From Candidatus Binataceae bacterium (GTDB lineage: Bacteria; Desulfobacterota; Binatia; Binatales; Binataceae), in assembly GCA_030041155.1 (NCBI GenBank), contig JASHOJ010000219.1, positions 1 to 42,788 on the forward strand: DNA of 42,788 nucleotides. Direction: 5' to 3'. A model generated the notes under the pieces. That model ran no database searches and was not told the DNA's origin. It saw only the letters and a program-made list of their open reading frames with translations. The position numbers were made by a program, and so were the translations under genes. This document shows, in pieces, positions 11,511 to 19,548 of the stretch (position 1 is its first letter; every line of letters begins with the position of its first letter).

Positions 11511-12665
11511 TTACCGGGCAATCTCCGAGCTTGATTCGGAGACGCGCGGTTGCGCGACTGCCGCATGATGCTCGGCGTAAAGCTGTCCGCATGCAGCAGC
11601 GATATCAAGTCCCCTGCTCTCGCGAATGGTAGCCGTCAAGTTACCGCGCCGCAGGATGCCTTGAAAGATCTCCACCGCCTCGCGCGGACTGCGCTCAAGC
11701 ACGGCGCCGGGAAACGGATTGAAGAAAATCAGGTTTACCTTGGCGCGCATCGGATGAAGGAGCTTTACCAGCCGCCGCGCGTCGTCAACCGAGTCGTTTA
11801 CCCCGGCCAGCATCACGTACTCGAAAGTCACCCGGCTGCGGTTTTTGAGCGGCAGACGCCGGCATGCGGCGATCAGTTCTTGAAGCGGATAGCGGCGGTT
11901 GATCGGCGCGAGCCGGTCGCGCAGCGCGTCGGTCGTGGCATGCAGCGAGACCGCGATATTGACCGGAATCTCGGCGACGAGCCGCTCCATCATCGGAACG
12001 TGGCCGACGGTCGAGACGGTGATGCGGCGTGGCGAGATGCCCATCGCCCACGGCTCGGTCATCGCGGCCAGGGTGCGGATGAGGCGCGGATAATTCGCAA
12101 GCGGCTCGCCCATCCCCATGAACACGTAATTGGTAATCTCTTCTGAATCGTCGAGTTCGCGGCGCGCCGCGAAAATCTGCCCGGCTATCTCGGCGGTGGT
12201 CAGGTTCCGATGCAGCCCCATCCGGGCGGTGGCGCAGAACTCGCACCCCATCGCGCATCCGGCCTGCGAAGACAGACAGAGGGTTACGCGGTTCTCGCCG
12301 GGGATAATGACGGTCTCGATTTCTTCGCCATCCGAGAGGCGCAGCAGAAGTTTGCGAGTGCCGTCGCTGGAGCGCCGCACGCTTGCCACCTCGGGAGACG
12401 CGAGAGTGAAGCGCGAGCCAAGCGTTTGGCGCAAAGCGGCGGGCAGATCGCTCATTGCGTCGAAGGAGTTCGCGCCACGCCGCCATATCCATGACGCGAT
12501 CTGGCCCGCCCGGTATGGGCGCTCTCCAGCCGCGACGACGGCGGCCTCCAGTTCGGCAAGGGTCAGATCGCGCAAGTCGGAGCGGTCGGTCGCGTCGGCC
12601 CTCGTATGGCGTGCTGAGATATTCACGCGAAACCGATTGTAACGGAAAAGCGCGCGCGCGCGCAT
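11511..12665 (-). CDS. rlmN: Dual-specificity 23S rRNA/tRNA adenine-C2 methyltransferase RlmN
   Basis: Radical-SAM enzyme methylating C2 of A2503 in 23S rRNA and A37 in some tRNAs. With the ATG at 12665 the protein has 384 residues. The start is chosen for the strong upstream site AAGGAAGGGG; an ATG at 12716 is in frame but unsupported. Cluster cysteines are C137, C141 and C144 in GCAMGCEFC. The methyl-carrying and resolving cysteines are C359 (ACGQL) and C130 (TLCLSSQ). FMGMGEPLANY is also typical. It is the first gene of the long minus-strand run rlmN-mtnP-pfkB-GT-ugd-galE-lepA-lepB. The last ~20 residues (VAQPRVSESSSEIAR) are an unconserved tail. Confidence 0.96.
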   Translation of the reverse strand: MRARALFRYNRFRVNISARHTRADATDRSDLRDLTLAELEAAVVAAGERPYRAGQIASWIWRRGANSFDAMSDLPAALRQTLGSRFTLASPEVASVRRSSDGTRKLLLRLSDGEEIETVIIPGENRVTLCLSSQAGCAMGCEFCATARMGLHRNLTTAEIAGQIFAARRELDDSEEITNYVFMGMGEPLANYPRLIRTLAAMTEPWAMGISPRRITVSTVGHVPMMERLVAEIPVNIAVSLHATTDALRDRLAPINRRYPLQELIAACRRLPLKNRSRVTFEYVMLAGVNDSVDDARRLVKLLHPMRAKVNLIFFNPFPGAVLERSPREAVEIFQGILRRGNLTATIRESRGLDIAAACGQLYAEHHAAVAQPRVSESSSEIAR

Positions 12666-13076
12666 GGTCCCCTTCCTTGGCGGTTCCGGACTGCCCTTCG
12701 GGCGGTTTCCCGGCATCTATGAGGTCGGGCGGCGATGGCTACGCACGACAGAGCGTGTACGGCCAAGATAAGGCTGATTTGAAATCCATATCACCCCCTA
12801 TGGACAGGCAGAACAAATTGCGCTTAAACAATTAGTAGGATTTAGCGGAGGGGAGGATGGCGTGGGGGCGGACGCTGAGCGGTTCTTTCAGTTAAAAATT
12901 CATTCTCAAATTTTCTCGCAGCCGCGAACAGCCGGCTTCGGATTTGTCGCGCCGGGCGTTGCGGGCGGTCGCGGTGAGATCGTTTCTGACCATCCAAGCA
13001 GGATGCTCTTGAAGATTAACAGTCTGGTTGTCCGAGGCCGGCCGCACACTTCTGCCAAAACTGTGGGTAGGGTCCT
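12666..13076. other. Divergent intergenic region between rlmN and the thaumatin-like gene
   Basis: 411 bp without a supportable gene. An AT-rich island at 12890-12918 contrasts with the G+C-rich surroundings and could be a promoter or UP element for the plus-strand lipoprotein gene. AATTG and CAATT flank 12817-12832. The open frame at 12862-13080 has no recognisable protein character. I found no convincing -35/-10 pair in either direction. Confidence 0.5.
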
Positions 13077-14954
13077 ATGAACAATCTGAGCAGGTTTCTC
13101 TGGCGCCTGATTCCCGCGATCGCGCTCGCTCTGATAGTCACGATGGCGACCGCTTGCGGACACGACAGCGATTCCTCCAGCGGCCATCACCATCGGCATA
13201 CTCCGACTCCCACGCCGACGATGAACCCGACTTCCACTCCGACCTCGACCCCCACTGGTACACCCACCAGTCATCCCACGCAGACTCCGACTGGTACGCC
13301 AACCGGGACTCCAACTTCAACCCCAACGGCGGTAGTTCCGACTCCAACGCCGACCCCCACCCGGACGGCAACTGCAACTGCAACCGCGACGGCGACCACG
13401 ACTGCGACCGCCACGGCGACCGCGACTGCGTCGCCTACGCCGACCGCAACGTGTACCAATGGCGCTGAGTACACGTTCCAGAACGACAACTCGTACGCGA
13501 TCTGGCTTAGTGAGTATTACCAGGGCACGAATCCCCTGAGCAGCAACCTGATAGCGCCGCCAGGCAATGATTGGGAGCTGCCGCAAAATTCATCGGTAAC
13601 GCTGTGTATGCCAGAGGGCTGGACCGGACGCTTCTGGGCGCGGACCGAGTGCGATTTCAGCATGATGGTGCCGGAAGACCAGAACTTCACAACCTGCAGC
13701 AGCAATGCCGATTGTACGAACGCCGGATACAGCGGAGACATCTGCTTCGGCGGATCATGCGTGGCGGATTGCTCGTCGGGTGATGTGGACTGTACGAGTG
13801 TGCTCGGCAATCCGAATGCTGTTTGCGAGACCGAAGGCGGGCAACAGTTCTGCGGCTTCGCATCAGGCACGGTGTGCCAGACAGGTGATTGTGGCTTCGG
13901 GCTCTATCAATGCCAAGGTACATGGAATGGCACTGACTTCGGTATCACTGGAGATGCACCAACCTCGCTGTTCGAGGCTACTATTAGCACTACCAGCCTG
14001 GCGACCGTGAACTACGACGTAAGCCTGGTCTCTGGCTACAACACCCCGATAAGCGCCTCGCCATCGGCGTCTGGCTGCTACGCGCCCGCTTGCACTAGTG
14101 ACCTGAATGCGACTTGCCCGACGAATCTACAGGTCACCGAGGCACCGACGGCAATCGGCACCATCCCATGCGGTACCAACACCTTCTGTGAGAGCGGTGC
14201 GTGCGTGAGTGGAGAGTGCGTTGTCGGATGCAACGATCCTGGCGATCAGTGCAGCGCCACGAGCCCGCCGACTGCGTTGGACTGCAATACCGCGGTCCCA
14301 AGCGGCGACAATTCCACATACTTCGATATGTACACGGCGGCGAACAAGAGCGGCAAAGGGACTAATGCCGGTAGCGACATAGGCGCCGCGATGTCATCGG
14401 GAAATCAGGGTACGCCCACCTGCTGGGGCAATGCGGATTGCCTGCCTAGCGAGACCTGCGAGATGGGGGTGATTTCGGGCTTTCCGGCAGGTCTGGGAAT
14501 TTGCGCATCAAGCACGAGCCCGACATTCCAGCCGCAGATCAATTGCTCAGGCGCCTCCGATGTCGGCAACGCCTGTGGAGGATACGAGGGTGCGGGATAT
14601 CCGAACGCTCAGGGTGATGTCTGCGAGGCGGCGACATTGACCGGCCCGTTGAACGGCACATATTACGTGTGCGTGCCGCCATACAATCCGGCGATTAATG
14701 GAATGGGTTCGCCTCAGACTCCGACTGGTGGTGGTACAACGCTTTTCACCGGCCCCGCGTGTCCCGCTAATCCCGAATGGCTGACTGCTGCAACCAACGC
14801 GGGAGGCGGCACTACGCCGTGGTACGAAACCTTCTCGAACGCCTGCCCTCATCAATATGGCTGGCAATACGACGACCATGCGGGAGACATCGGATGCACT
14901 CCGGGAGGTACGACTCCAACTGATATGACGGTGACGTTCGGTCTCTCGCAGTAG
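13077..14954 (+). CDS. Lipoprotein with Thr-Pro stalk and thaumatin-like domain
   Basis: 625 residues. A lipoprotein signal ([16 protein letters not shown]) gives acylated Cys27. Residues 42-125 are a Thr-Pro then Thr-Ala stalk. From about 128 a thaumatin-like domain is recognisable in order: [67 protein letters not shown], and at the end [15 protein letters not shown] with CTPGGT and MTVTFG. Candidate acidic-cleft residues are R189, E300, D314 and D599/D600; the Asp of the plant LVDGFN motif is Ser319. Three Cys-rich inserts interrupt the fold (about 207-260, 365-403, 449-516). Thaumatin-like proteins in plants and fungi include antifungal and beta-glucan-binding or -cleaving members. Here it is probably surface-anchored; its ligand is unknown. 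The gene stands alone between minus-strand neighbours. Confidence 0.85.
13201..13452 (+). repeat. Low-complexity Thr-Pro/Thr-Ala coding repeat
   Basis: Degenerate 6-bp units (ACN CCN, then ACN GCN) encode the stalk of the lipoprotein. The first part is PT/TPT/TPTGTPT-like and the last part is a run of about eleven Thr-Ala pairs. Such DNA is prone to slippage, so copy number may vary between strains. In eukaryotic proteins similar stretches are mucin-like O-glycosylated spacers; here a rigid spacer is the simplest reading. Confidence 0.85.
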
Positions 14955-14972: not shown

Positions 14973-14999
14973 GCGGCGCGCTCAGTCCGGGCGCGCCGC
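14973..14999. terminator. Hairpin between convergent genes, over the prmC stop
   Basis: GCGGCGCGC (14973-14981) pairs perfectly with GCGCGCCGC (14991-14999); the prmC stop codon lies in the 9-nt loop. The thaumatin-like gene ends 18 bp before it on the opposite strand. It could serve both converging transcripts, but neither side has a T-run. Confidence 0.45.
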
Positions 15000-15878
15000 G
15001 ACGAGGGCGCGCGGGATGCCTGTCAGGTCCTTGATCACGTCCGTGACGCGCAGGCCGGAATCGGCGAAAATTCCCGCAATCTGGGCCGCCTGCTCCGCGC
15101 CCACTTCCACGACAATCTCGCCGCCGCTTTCGAGATGCCGCGGTGCGGCGTGAGCTATCCTACGGTAGGATTCGAGAGCGCCGCCAGAATTGTTAACCAG
15201 CGCAACGCGCGGCTCGAAATTTCGGACCTCGGGATCGAGCTTCTCTATCTCGCGAACATCGACATAAGGCGGATTAGAAACGATCAGATCGAATCTGCCG
15301 AGCAAGCACCCTGGCTCAAGGGGTTCGAAGAAATCGGCCCGCAGCAGCCTGAATCTTTGGCCGGAAAGCAGACGATCCGCGTTGAGCCGCGCTACCGCGA
15401 GTGCGTCCGCGGAAATATCGGTCGCGGTCACGATGCTATCCGGCGCGGATGCGGCGATCGCGATCGCAATCGCGCCGGAGCCGGTGCCCAAATCGAGCAC
15501 GCGCGTCGCGCCGCGGCGTCGCGACAGGCACTCAAGGGCGCGCGCGACCACGACCTCGGTCTCGGGGCGCGGAATCAGCACCGCGGGCGTGATCTCGAAA
15601 TCGAGCGAGAAGAACTCCTTGTGACCGACAATGTATGCAACTGGTTCGCGGGCGAGCCGTCGCTCGACCATCGCGGCAAAGCGCCGCGCCGCATCATTGG
15701 AGATTCGCGCGCTACCCGCCGCGACCTCGACCCGCGTCGAGCCCGCCGCATGCGCGAGCATCACTTCCGCGTCAAGCCGCGCGGTATCGATTCCAGCGCT
15801 TAAGAGGCGCGCCTGCGCCTCCGCGATCAATTGCCTCGGCGCGACGATGCCGGAATGGTCTGGCGCTGAGCGCGGCAT
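14982..15878 (-). CDS. prmC: Release factor glutamine methyltransferase
   Basis: Methylates the glutamine of the GGQ motif of peptide release factors using SAM. 298 residues, slightly over the usual ~280. An N-terminal helical substrate domain is followed by the Rossmann methyltransferase domain with RPETE at 104-108, VLDLGTGSGAIAIAIA (SAM binding) and catalytic NPPY at 202-205. It lies 9 bp downstream of prfA, its own substrate's gene, the common bacterial order, and the two are almost certainly co-transcribed. Confidence 0.95.
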   Translation of the reverse strand: MPRSAPDHSGIVAPRQLIAEAQARLLSAGIDTARLDAEVMLAHAAGSTRVEVAAGSARISNDAARRFAAMVERRLAREPVAYIVGHKEFFSLDFEITPAVLIPRPETEVVVARALECLSRRRGATRVLDLGTGSGAIAIAIAASAPDSIVTATDISADALAVARLNADRLLSGQRFRLLRADFFEPLEPGCLLGRFDLIVSNPPYVDVREIEKLDPEVRNFEPRVALVNNSGGALESYRRIAHAAPRHLESGGEIVVEVGAEQAAQIAGIFADSGLRVTDVIKDLTGIPRALVAARPD

Positions 15879-15887
15879 CGTCAGCGC

Positions 15888-16952
15888 TCAGGCACTTAGA
15901 AGCTGCGCCTGCTCCTGAGTGGCGAGCGCGTCGATCAGCGGATCGATCGCGCCGTCGAGGAACTGATCGAGCTGATGGATAGTCACGTTGACGCGATGGT
16001 CGGTTACCCGGGATTGCGGAAAATTGTAGGTGCGGATTCGCTCCGAGCGATCGCCGGTCCCGACCATCGAGCGGCGGGTGGCGGCGATCTGCGCCTCCTG
16101 GTCGGCGCGGGCCTTGTCGAGCAGGCGCGAGCGCAGGATCTTTAGCGCGCGGGCCTTGTTCTTGTGCTGCGATTTTTCGTCGCGGCATACGATAACCATC
16201 CCGGTCGGCAGATGGGTGATTCGCACGGCGGAATCCGTGGTGTTGACGCTCTGTCCGCCGGGGCCGGACGCGCGCATCACGTCGATCCGCAGATCCTTTT
16301 CCTCGTTGATATTTACCTCCACGTCCTCCGCTTCCGGCATCACCGCGACGGTCACCGCCGAGGTATGGATGCGGCCGGCGGCCTCGGTCGCGGGCACGCG
16401 CTGCACGCGATGCACTCCTCCTTCGTACTTGAGCCGCGAGTAAGCGCCGCGCCCGGAGATCATCGCGATTACTTCCTTGATGCCGCCAAGGCCGGTGTCG
16501 GAGAGGCTCATCGCCTCGATCTTCCAGCCATGGCGCTCGGCGTAGCGCGAGTACATCCGGTATAGATCGCCCGCGAACAGCGATGCCTCGGCGCCGCCGG
16601 TGCCGGCGCGAATCTCGAGCAGCACGTTCTTGTCATCGTTCGGATCGCGCGGAATCAGCAGGCGTGTGAGCTTTTCTTCGAGCGGCGCCTGCTGCTTCTG
16701 GAGCGCGGGCAAATCGGCCTTGGCGAGTTCGCGCAACTCCGCGTCGTCGCCTTCGAGCAGCGCCTTATGCTCGGCGATATCGGACAGGAGCTTGCGATAC
16801 TCGCGCGCGGCGGCGGCAAGTTCGGACATGCCCGCACGCTCCTTGGCGAGCTTTGCGTACTCGCGATTATTCGAGGTAACCGCGGGATCGAGAAGCTTGC
16901 GCTCAAGATCCGCGTAGTGCTCCTCTATTCCTTTGAGCTTATCCAGCATCAT
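15888..16952 (-). CDS. prfA: Peptide chain release factor 1
   Basis: Recognises UAA and UAG and triggers hydrolysis of the finished peptide. With the ATG at 16952 the length is 354 residues (family about 355-360). The anticodon-like tripeptide PAT is at 187-189 in RVPATEAAGRIHTS, which marks RF1 rather than RF2. The catalytic GGQ is at 232-234 in GPGGQSVNTTDSAVR. The start is one of two adjacent ATG codons, preceded by AGGGCGG at a suitable distance. A TTG at 16982 would add ten residues but is less likely. An intrinsic terminator lies about 30 bp upstream, between rpmE and prfA. Confidence 0.95.
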   Translation of the reverse strand: MMLDKLKGIEEHYADLERKLLDPAVTSNNREYAKLAKERAGMSELAAAAREYRKLLSDIAEHKALLEGDDAELRELAKADLPALQKQQAPLEEKLTRLLIPRDPNDDKNVLLEIRAGTGGAEASLFAGDLYRMYSRYAERHGWKIEAMSLSDTGLGGIKEVIAMISGRGAYSRLKYEGGVHRVQRVPATEAAGRIHTSAVTVAVMPEAEDVEVNINEEKDLRIDVMRASGPGGQSVNTTDSAVRITHLPTGMVIVCRDEKSQHKNKARALKILRSRLLDKARADQEAQIAATRRSMVGTGDRSERIRTYNFPQSRVTDHRVNVTIHQLDQFLDGAIDPLIDALATQEQAQLLSA

Positions 16953-16981
16953 CAGTCGAACCGCCCTGCATGCATCACCCA

Positions 16982-17012
16982 AAAATAAACGCGGCGGGAG
17001 ATGACCCGCCGC
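16982..17012 (-). terminator. Intrinsic terminator after rpmE
   Basis: On the minus strand GCGGCGGG and CCCGCCGC form a perfect 8-bp stem (arms 17005-17012 and 16991-16998) with a 6-nt loop, followed by GTTTATTTTTG. It lies about 60 bp after the rpmE stop and ends only about 30 bp before the prfA start. That leaves little room for a separate prfA promoter, so partial read-through is possible. Confidence 0.8.
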
Positions 17013-17323: not shown

Positions 17324-18880
17324 CTGCGATATCAAACAATTCGCATCATTGGCGGCTTCCTCGCGATTTCTGTTGCAATCTCCTTCCTGATCGTCGCGAT
17401 TCTGGGCGCTGACTCTCGCGCGCCGAGGCCCGCAGCCTCTTGCCCACCCTCCGGCATGGCTGGTCCGGGCTTCGCGCCCGACAGCGAGACGGCTTTTTCT
17501 CCAGTGGTCGCGCTCGCTCCACCGGGTCCGAACCGCGCCGCGCGTGCGGTCGAGCTTCTAAACCGCCAGCTCGATTTTCAGCGCGCCATCTGGTTTCATC
17601 CGGCGCTCGATGCTCCGCTGGAGGCGCTGGTCGATCAGCTTCCGCCGCGCGAGTCGACGCTTATCCGCGCATCGGCGCTCTACTCGGACCCGTCCATACC
17701 GTGGCAGGTTCCCTCGGCCCGCGTGCATCAGATCTCCGTGTCCGGCGCGCCGCGCGGCTCGGAATATCTGTACAAGCTCTCACGAAAATACGTTCCGCCC
17801 GAGAGTGCCGAGCACATGGCCGGCGAATTTTCGCTCGCTCCCGCGACTGCGACCTCGGACGGCGCCGCCAGTGTTATCGGCACGCTGAGCGGTGAGATGA
17901 TGTCGGATACATTCCCCGCAAGCGCGGGAGTCGATCTCGCCGCACAGGCGCTAAGGCAGCTTCATGGCGACCTGAAGCCGCCGTGGGACACGAAACCGGG
18001 AAAATTTAATCATCATGACCGCGCGGCGCTGGCACGACTGCATCGTGATATGCCGGCGCTCGCGGCAAAGCTCGATCACTATTTTATTTTTTACAACGTG
18101 GTCGACGAATTCGACTCTCCGGACGGTCCGATCGTACTGCTCAACCTCGATGTCCAGGTGAGACGGGGCGCACTCAAGAAATATCCGGATCTGCGCGATT
18201 TCTATCGGCAACTCGCCCCGATTGTGACCGTACAGTCGGACATTACCGATCGCGCGGGGCATTACTGGATGCGCACCAGGTTCGCGCACGGCCATCTGCA
18301 TGTAACCCTGATGGATCGCGACGGAATGCTTACGCCCTTCGACGATCGGGACCTGCCGGCAGGAACAAGTGTCGAGCTCGAAAAAATCGCGCATGGCACT
18401 TATCGCACGGCTTCATCGGCGGTGATGTCGCATCTCGGGATGACGTTCGGATTAGGCAATCTTGCGTTCAAGACCGATTATCGGCGCGACGGCGACCGGC
18501 TGCTGGCGGTGAGCACGATGGACACGGTGCCGGAGCTTATCGCTCCGCCTGGAATCCACAAAGTGATCGATTTACTGGCGGGAGAGTTTCTGCGGGTTAT
18601 GGCGCACGGAGACGGCGGCTTCCGTTCGATTTTCAGCTCGGGTCCGGTGCAAAGCGGACTCTACGCCTATTCAGTGAACGTGATGGGCGAGTTCGAGTAC
18701 TCGCCTACTCTGGAATTTCTGGCGCGAATCGGCGACGAGATGGCGGACAAGCACAACGAGCAGGTCCGACTGGAGGAACGCGAGTTCGGCGAAGAACTTT
18801 TCGACGCCTTCGAGAGCGACTACAATCATGCGCGGCCATCGATAATCGCGCTGGACCGGGGGCAGGCGCATCCGCAGTGA
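17324..18880 (+). CDS. Membrane-anchored protein of unknown function
   Basis: Not recognised. The first ATG in frame is at 17456 (474 residues), but the frame stays open upstream and encodes a clear N-terminal anchor (RYQTIRIIGGFLAISVAI, then a second hydrophobic half ending ILGAD). No ATG, GTG or TTG precedes it. CTG at 17324 has AAAGGA nine bases upstream, so I propose a CTG start and 518 residues. The anchor would span about 8-28, with the bulk outside the cytoplasm: a mixed alpha/beta domain with no Cys cluster or enzyme motif I know, ending in a Glu-rich helix. The stop overlaps the next lipoprotein's start as GTGA, so the two are coupled. If the CTG start is wrong, a base error near 17330-17450 is the alternative. 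Confidence 0.75.
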   Translation: MRYQTIRIIGGFLAISVAISFLIVAILGADSRAPRPAASCPPSGMAGPGFAPDSETAFSPVVALAPPGPNRAARAVELLNRQLDFQRAIWFHPALDAPLEALVDQLPPRESTLIRASALYSDPSIPWQVPSARVHQISVSGAPRGSEYLYKLSRKYVPPESAEHMAGEFSLAPATATSDGAASVIGTLSGEMMSDTFPASAGVDLAAQALRQLHGDLKPPWDTKPGKFNHHDRAALARLHRDMPALAAKLDHYFIFYNVVDEFDSPDGPIVLLNLDVQVRRGALKKYPDLRDFYRQLAPIVTVQSDITDRAGHYWMRTRFAHGHLHVTLMDRDGMLTPFDDRDLPAGTSVELEKIAHGTYRTASSAVMSHLGMTFGLGNLAFKTDYRRDGDRLLAVSTMDTVPELIAPPGIHKVIDLLAGEFLRVMAHGDGGFRSIFSSGPVQSGLYAYSVNVMGEFEYSPTLEFLARIGDEMADKHNEQVRLEEREFGEELFDAFESDYNHARPSIIALDRGQAHPQ

Positions 18881-19548
18881 AGACCGATCAAATTGTTGTG
18901 GTACTCGCGGCGATCGCGATACTCGCGGCCGCCGTGGCGGGATGTAGTTCCAACTCGAACCAGCAGCCGCAGGCGACAGCGACGCCGCATTTCGTGACCG
19001 ACCTGTCATCGCTTTCGCCCGCGCCGATTAGCCCGCTGGTGGATCCCTCCGCCGCGTTTGCCGCGACTCACGACAACCGGGACCAGGACGCGCGCGCATC
19101 CGAAGGGATGACAGGCGACTACATCAGCGTCGGCACCGATCGGAGTCCGGGAATTCTGACCCTGACGAATCCCAAGGCGGCGGAATTTAAGACCTTCTCG
19201 TTCGTGCTTCTGAGCCATCTGTTCGCGGCGGTGCGCGATCGCGAACAATCGGACGAAATCACCCGGCTCAAGCTGCCCTCAAACCTTAGGAGCGCGATCA
19301 TCACGGCGACGCTCGACAAGGACGGCAAGCTGAAAGAGATAGTCGTCGAGCAGCATTCCGGCAAAGGCGCGATCGATCAGTTGCTGGTAAGCGCGGCCAA
19401 GCAATCGTTGTGGGCGCCCAATCCGCCAAAAGAGGCGGCGGAGACGACCGGCAATTATCAACTGCGAATCAACTTCAAGATGGAGAATTTCGCGTCGGTG
19501 GATGGCAGGTGGGTGTTCAAGACGTACATCGGGCTCGCGCTTCTGTAG
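18877..19548 (+). CDS. Lipoprotein with TonB-C-like domain
   Basis: 223 residues. The start GTG at 18877 overlaps the stop of the preceding gene (GTGA). The signal peptide VVLAAIAILAAAVAGC gives lipidated Cys23. After a disordered Gln/Thr/Pro linker, residues about 130-205 resemble a TonB C-terminal (energy transducer) domain: a strand pair around ITATLDKDGKLKEIVVEQHS, then GAIDQLLVSAAKQSLWAPNPP and a last strand YQLRINFKM. Having that domain on a lipoprotein rather than behind a TonB membrane helix suggests a periplasmic binding or scaffold role with the coupled upstream protein. The domain call is a judgement by eye. Confidence 0.75.
   Translation: MKTDQIVVVLAAIAILAAAVAGCSSNSNQQPQATATPHFVTDLSSLSPAPISPLVDPSAAFAATHDNRDQDARASEGMTGDYISVGTDRSPGILTLTNPKAAEFKTFSFVLLSHLFAAVRDREQSDEITRLKLPSNLRSAIITATLDKDGKLKEIVVEQHSGKGAIDQLLVSAAKQSLWAPNPPKEAAETTGNYQLRINFKMENFASVDGRWVFKTYIGLALL

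Follow-up and report, generated by a model that had tools for sequence, protein, structure and literature searches.

Work on thaumatin-like proteins (TLP) has dealt almost exclusively with those of plants, fungi and animals. The plant TLP, or PR-5 proteins (PF00314; osmotin, zeamatin, Pru av 2, banana TLP), are soluble proteins of about 200–220 amino acids with 16 cysteines. In thaumatin, the first cysteine (C9) is disulfide-bonded to the last one (C204). Many TLP bind or cleave β-1,3-glucans (PMC3048497; PMC13251364). The GH64 β-1,3-glucanases are grouped with the TLP by fold in a GH64-TLP superfamily (PMC13251364, PMC13106811). The fungal SUN domains combine a thaumatin-like fold with a disulfide-rich module, and their thaumatin-like domain lines a canyon that fits β-1,3-glucan (PMC13251364). 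The TLP from the fungus Puccinia graminis (PDB 7p23; about 240 residues) has fewer disulfides and altered cleft residues, according to a review (PMC13148976). A bacterial structure with the thaumatin fold is that of the TLP from the actinobacterium Amycolatopsis rifamycinica (PDB 7p22), a 244-residue chain of ordinary size; a literature search on the Amycolatopsis thaumatin-like protein found no paper.

The window, i.e. the whole stretch of 42,788 nucleotides analysed here, is the entire contig C310 of a Candidatus Binataceae bacterium, an uncultured organism of soil or tailings, and contains a gene for a thaumatin-like protein. The window protein has the block order and the barrel of the plant TLP, the equivalents of C56, C66, C71, C77, C121, C126, C134, C177 and C193, and the Arg, Glu, Asp and Asp residues of their acidic cleft. 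On the other hand, it consists of a 500-residue head with 35 Cys, a stalk and a predicted lipid anchor, and, unlike the plant TLP, has no C9–C204 pair, a Ser in place of the third cleft acid and a domain II that is several times longer. The Amycolatopsis chain matches it both by fold and by profile (E = 8.5e-19) but is too short to accommodate either the expanded domain II or the stalk. The Puccinia protein is among its top sequence and fold matches and lacks the stalk, the anchor and the large Cys-rich inserts. The SUN domains are a separate fungal family without the REDDD residues, in which the sushi-like module is N-terminal and not inserted; they gave no sequence match here.

The protein is, therefore, an unusual variant of the thaumatin-like family and not a new kind of protein. 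The initial annotation described it as a bacterial thaumatin-like lipoprotein. The family assignment stands, whereas bacterial TLP as such are not novel, since the Amycolatopsis structure and the recognition by the Pfam profile indicate that they were already known.

The gene and its genomic setting

The coordinates first assigned to the gene (13077–14954, +) are exact. They encode 625 amino acids from an ATG start in a frame that runs uninterrupted (Table 1). L044, from genome G003, is the nearest relative. It shares 67% identity with the window protein, and over the 486 codons compared the differences amount to 25%, 20% and 48% at codon positions 1, 2 and 3, respectively. The corresponding dN (0.25) and dS (1.39) yield a dN/dS of about 0.18, which indicates purifying selection on a real gene. 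Its G+C content is about that of the flanking genes. The gene is solitary and stands between rlmN and the pair prmC-prfA, all ordinary bacterial genes, and the stop of prmC lies 27 bases past its own. No glycan-utilisation genes adjoin it and, by Pfam, no secretion or lytic genes are found among its neighbours.

Table 1. Features of the thaumatin-like gene, its product and its neighbours (nucleotide positions in the window unless given as protein residues).
Feature	Position	Strand	Basis
rlmN-like radical SAM gene, neighbour	11511..12716	-	Pfam RlmN_N, Radical_SAM
Signal peptide and lipobox Cys27	13077..13157	+	sequence; PROSITE PS51257 by hand
Thr/Pro/Ala stalk, residues 41–125 (85 aa)	13197..13451	+	composition
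Thaumatin barrel, first part (126–192); GRFW (R185), RTEC (C192); Asn138 at the C9 position	13452..13652	+	Pfam, alignments
Cys-rich insert 193–266 between RTEC and CQTGDC; CSSNADC...CFGGSC...C module	13653..13874	+	alignments, sequences
Thaumatin core 267–348; CQTGDC, E300, D314, Ser319, 16-residue motif	13875..14120	+	Pfam, PDB profile alignments
Enlarged domain II 349–589, at least two Cys modules	14121..14843	+	sequence, alignments
C-terminal thaumatin part 590–625; 11-residue motif (D599/D600), C607; Gly622 at the C204 position	14844..14951	+	alignments
prmC, convergent neighbour	14982..15878	-	Pfam PrmC_N
prfA (release factor 1), neighbour	15888..16982	-	Pfam PCRF, RF-1
Motif GRFWARTEC	184–192 (protein)		sequence
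Motif CQTGDCG	267–273 (protein)		sequence
13-residue motif	313–325 (protein)		sequence
16-residue motif	333–348 (protein)		sequence
11-residue motif	590–600 (protein)		sequence
Motif CTPGGT	607–612 (protein)		sequence

Family assignment and predicted fold

The six thaumatin motif blocks listed in the initial annotation are all present in the 625-residue protein and in the order given there. The search with the PF00314 (Thaumatin) profile that it proposed scored 78.2 bits (E = 9.2e-22; cut-off 27.4 bits) over three stretches, the best of which covers residues 255–393. No other Pfam family, GH64 included, matched the protein up to E = 1. The relatives likewise pass the PF00314 cut-off. A phmmer search of the PDB with the window protein gave matches to thaumatin-like chains, among them those of cherry, juniper and Puccinia. 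A profile built from 11 relatives retrieved 26 thaumatin-family chains, with apple TLP as the best (3e-35), cherry TLP at 2e-33 and thaumatin at about 1e-20. These PDB and Pfam matches are far beyond chance and, by sequence, support membership of the thaumatin family. Weak NCBIfam matches to SslE and GltJ were rejected because they fall on the low-complexity signal and Thr/Pro stalk; the PDB match 8zvk was discarded as it falls on the stalk too.

The AlphaFold model of the window protein, built from an alignment of ten rows (the window protein and its named relatives), has a mean pLDDT of 58.6. All 29 PDB matches to this model with E ≤ 0.001 are thaumatin-fold structures, and the next match is at 0.17. 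With a TM of about 0.42 by target length and an rmsd of about 10 Å, the fold class is supported but the cleft geometry and the domain arrangement are not. The structure prediction that had been called for agrees on the fold class. A missing profile hit together with a different fold had been named as the outcome that would speak against the assignment; the searches returned a profile hit and a model whose significant fold matches are thaumatins. A second model, of the relative L061, is poor (pLDDT 42).

Architecture of the head and presumed pairing of the cysteines

The head comprises residues 126–625. The barrel and the early domain II are recognisable against solved thaumatins up to the CP at residues 347–348. 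Domain II then extends over about 240 residues, compared with a few dozen for the same stretch in plant TLP, and after this Cys-rich expansion the thaumatin C-terminus resumes at a 12-residue stretch. Among the paralogues there is strong variation in domain II and in the inserts, whereas the core is retained. The barrel insert of about 75 residues has the same form and place within the window clade (L043, L044, L045, L047/L106). In the alignments, the sister lineage L036/L037 has a similar Cys module but places it before GRFW. This difference in location indicates that the modules entered different loops of one fold.

The canonical pattern of 16 Cys in eight disulfides is not reproduced. Nine of the 16 positions can be assigned, five domain II cysteines have no assignment because the domain is expanded, and C9 and C204 are jointly absent, both end cysteines being replaced (by Asn138 and Gly622, respectively). 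Of the 23 proteins in a hand-curated table, 13 have both cysteines and 10 have neither, with no mixed case. Five more proteins (L099, L101, L102, L103 and L106) agree, so that C9 and C204 go together in 28 of the 28 scorable proteins, a count that leaves out four further, non-scorable ones. The Fisher value for the co-occurrence in the 23 proteins is 9e-7, with relatedness ignored. On a tree built from the other blocks the pair underwent about three changes, and at least three, and three independent changes are too few for significance in a sign test. The joint loss is as predicted if the two cysteines pair as in thaumatin. The initial annotation overlooked the expansion of domain II, the insertion of modules and the loss of the closing disulfide. 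With these and the changed cleft acid, the protein belongs to the family but is not a plain thaumatin.

Signal peptide, lipobox and stalk

The lipobox MATA-C27 satisfies the pattern PS51257, applied by hand, and Arg6 lies near the start of the protein. Its position −3 is Ala, less usual than the customary Leu, and residue +2 after Cys27 is Gly. A short His/Ser-rich stretch leads from the lipobox to the stalk, and residues 33–125 contain 39 Thr, 18 Pro and 12 Ala out of 93. Both the lipobox and a stalk of about 85 residues had been noticed at the outset, and both were confirmed. Several relatives have canonical lipoboxes (LAGC, LSAC or VAGC) and others have ordinary signal peptides. The window protein is probably an exported lipoprotein that would be anchored in the outer membrane.

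In some relatives the Thr/Pro/Ala stalk is C-terminal instead (L033, L034, L045, L046 and L050). In L033, an ASH (ASPM-SPD-2-Hydin) Ig-like domain comes after the stalk; L034 and L045 resemble L033 in their C-terminal sequence. The arrangement of L033 is an alternative way to display the same thaumatin head.

The acidic cleft

We take the REDDD positions to be Arg43, Glu83, Asp96 and Asp101 of banana TLP and the last Asp of the near-terminal DD. In the profile alignment, with banana TLP numbering, the first four are located in GRIW, LAEF, FDIS and VDGFN, respectively. By the alignments with banana and cherry TLP, four of the five residues are kept in the window protein (R185, E300, D314 and D599/600) and the third acid is Ser319, so that one residue of the plant cleft is missing. 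A loss of the cleft Arg was considered and rejected, as the banana TLP numbering puts this residue in GRFW, where it is kept as R185. Among the relatives that were read, E300 is invariant (22/22) and D314 is kept in 20 of 21. The sequence extends to the YDD motif in 20 of the relatives, and all of these retain its aspartates. The third acid is Asp in few relatives and Ser or Asn in most, and the Arg is conserved in about half of them. Two nematode TLP with measured β-1,3-glucanase activity have an Arg, Glu, Asp, Asp set with matching spacing, named as their putative catalytic site (PMC13106811). On the other hand, the SUN domains have been proposed to bind glucan without REDDD, which makes the motif an unreliable predictor in either direction.

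Distribution and relatives

PF00314 was found in 26 of the 148 genomes of the class, 21 of them among the 41 genomes of the window's family and 5 among the 107 elsewhere in the class. It occurs in 10 of 297 sampled genomes of the phylum and in none of 14 control genomes. The copy number reaches about four or five per genome. In the window's uncultured 'deltaproteobacterial' family, the genes are patchy and multicopy and do not lie at conserved sites. The bacterial relatives are 28–68% identical to the window protein, and the window clade consists of five sequences (support 100/99). A single-protein query against the named genomes returned zero matches, whereas the alignment search recovered five relatives, in metagenome assemblies labelled Deltaproteobacteria or Proteobacteria. 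By their record titles (YP3, FK3, Centralia, palsa), these are environmental metagenome assemblies.

The window shares no neighbouring gene with the copies in its clade, and in none of the 29 relatives with prmC surroundings read does the gene lie within 1.5 kb of prmC. Consequently, the gene appears to come and go and to act alone. L036 and L037, a closer pair outside the window clade, have an ATP synthase operon around the gene in common, in keeping with ordinary vertical descent in that pair. A plasmid or phage origin was rejected, since the gene was found neither in the plasmid and phage collections nor in the viral contigs.

Possible function

The head may well be a cell-anchored binder of β-1,3-glucan or a similar polysaccharide through its retained cleft, perhaps with weak hydrolysis, a reading that we favour and in which we place about half of our confidence. 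It is based on what is known of the family, on the near-invariant E300, D314 and YDD and on the display architecture. The unstructured 85-residue stalk would hold the thaumatin-fold head, with its enlarged and presumably disulfide cross-linked domain II, off the membrane. R185, E300, D314 and D599/600 would then bind β-1,3-glucan or a similar polysaccharide of the surroundings, for example in exopolysaccharide or in the walls of fungi or algae. This binding would serve attachment or weak hydrolysis, and the added Cys modules may widen or tune the binding groove. In a bolder and rather unlikely form, the proteins would be rapidly diversifying, multicopy, cell-anchored heads whose disulfide modules, placed in different loops, alter the specificity, a bacterial counterpart of PR-5 that recognises or grazes fungal or algal glucan from the cell surface.

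The main rival to glucan binding is a surface adhesin or recognition protein with a protein or another glycan as ligand, in which the fold serves as a scaffold and the Cys-rich domain II as a variable binding face, or, in the extreme form, an inhibitor of foreign glycanases. The variable domain II and inserts on a constant core, the several copies per genome and the unretained third acid agree with it, and the wheat protein TLXI, a xylanase inhibitor without a well-defined acidic cleft (PMC3048497), is a precedent. However, the near-invariance of E300, D314 and YDD across diverged bacterial paralogues suggests that the cleft matters, and we hold this alternative to be somewhat unlikely. The retained R/E/D/D and the glucanase or glycoside hydrolase activities measured for Rhizoctonia (PMC11135045) and nematode (PMC13106811) TLP would also suit a lytic effector used against fungi or in predation, with the β-1,3-glucan of prey or competitors as the substrate of hydrolysis. 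Such a role is improbable for a protein that is anchored to the cell and not released, that has Ser at the third acid and no GH64 match, and whose gene has no secretion or lytic neighbours.

A structural surface protein that serves against acid or desiccation by binding the cell's own exopolysaccharide, foreign glucan being irrelevant, would be in line with the very acidic head (45 Asp/Glu and 4 Lys/Arg; the pI was computed as about 3.2) and with the environmental origin of the named relatives. On the other hand, about half of the genomes in the family lack the gene, which indicates that its product is not a core part of the envelope and leaves this role quite improbable. The patchy distribution and a fold best known from eukaryotes could point to a recent acquisition from a eukaryote or to eukaryotic DNA contamination. 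Both are disfavoured, and indeed very improbable, given the flanking rlmN, prmC and prfA at similar G+C content, the uninterrupted frame, the bacterial lipobox and stalk, and the diverged bacterial relatives with their well-supported clade. The tree covers bacterial sequences, and a transfer in the distant past, in one direction or the other, would be compatible with it. The variants of the family (stalks, disulfide modules, lost closing disulfide) offer natural material for testing which elements of the fold glucan binding requires, and thaumatin-like genes may mark contacts of bacteria with fungi or algae in soils and tailings.

Additional observations

Elsewhere, the window codes for a 474-residue protein with zero Pfam matches (17456–18880, +). 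It overlaps a small lipoprotein-like gene (18877–19548, +) that has a TonB C-terminal domain match below threshold. In L054, from a distant genome, a Pfam match next to prfA was rejected as a syntenic copy, since it scores 26.5 bits, below the cut-off, and has no tblastn match to the window protein. In genome G007 (contig C11), the ortholog L047:8901-10388 is split by an in-frame stop into frames of 211 and 405 aa, while the copy of the sister genome (L106) is intact; the split copy is either a recent pseudogene or an assembly error. L104 and L107 form a divergent thaumatin-like group with the N-terminal motif LVNCSSQ or LVNESAA and an unusual C-terminus, and the frame of L107 appears broken. 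In genome G010, which has at least four thaumatin-like genes, two distinct thaumatin-like lipoproteins are encoded adjacently at L051:7359-12387 (contig C63), in frames of 1030 and 728 aa.
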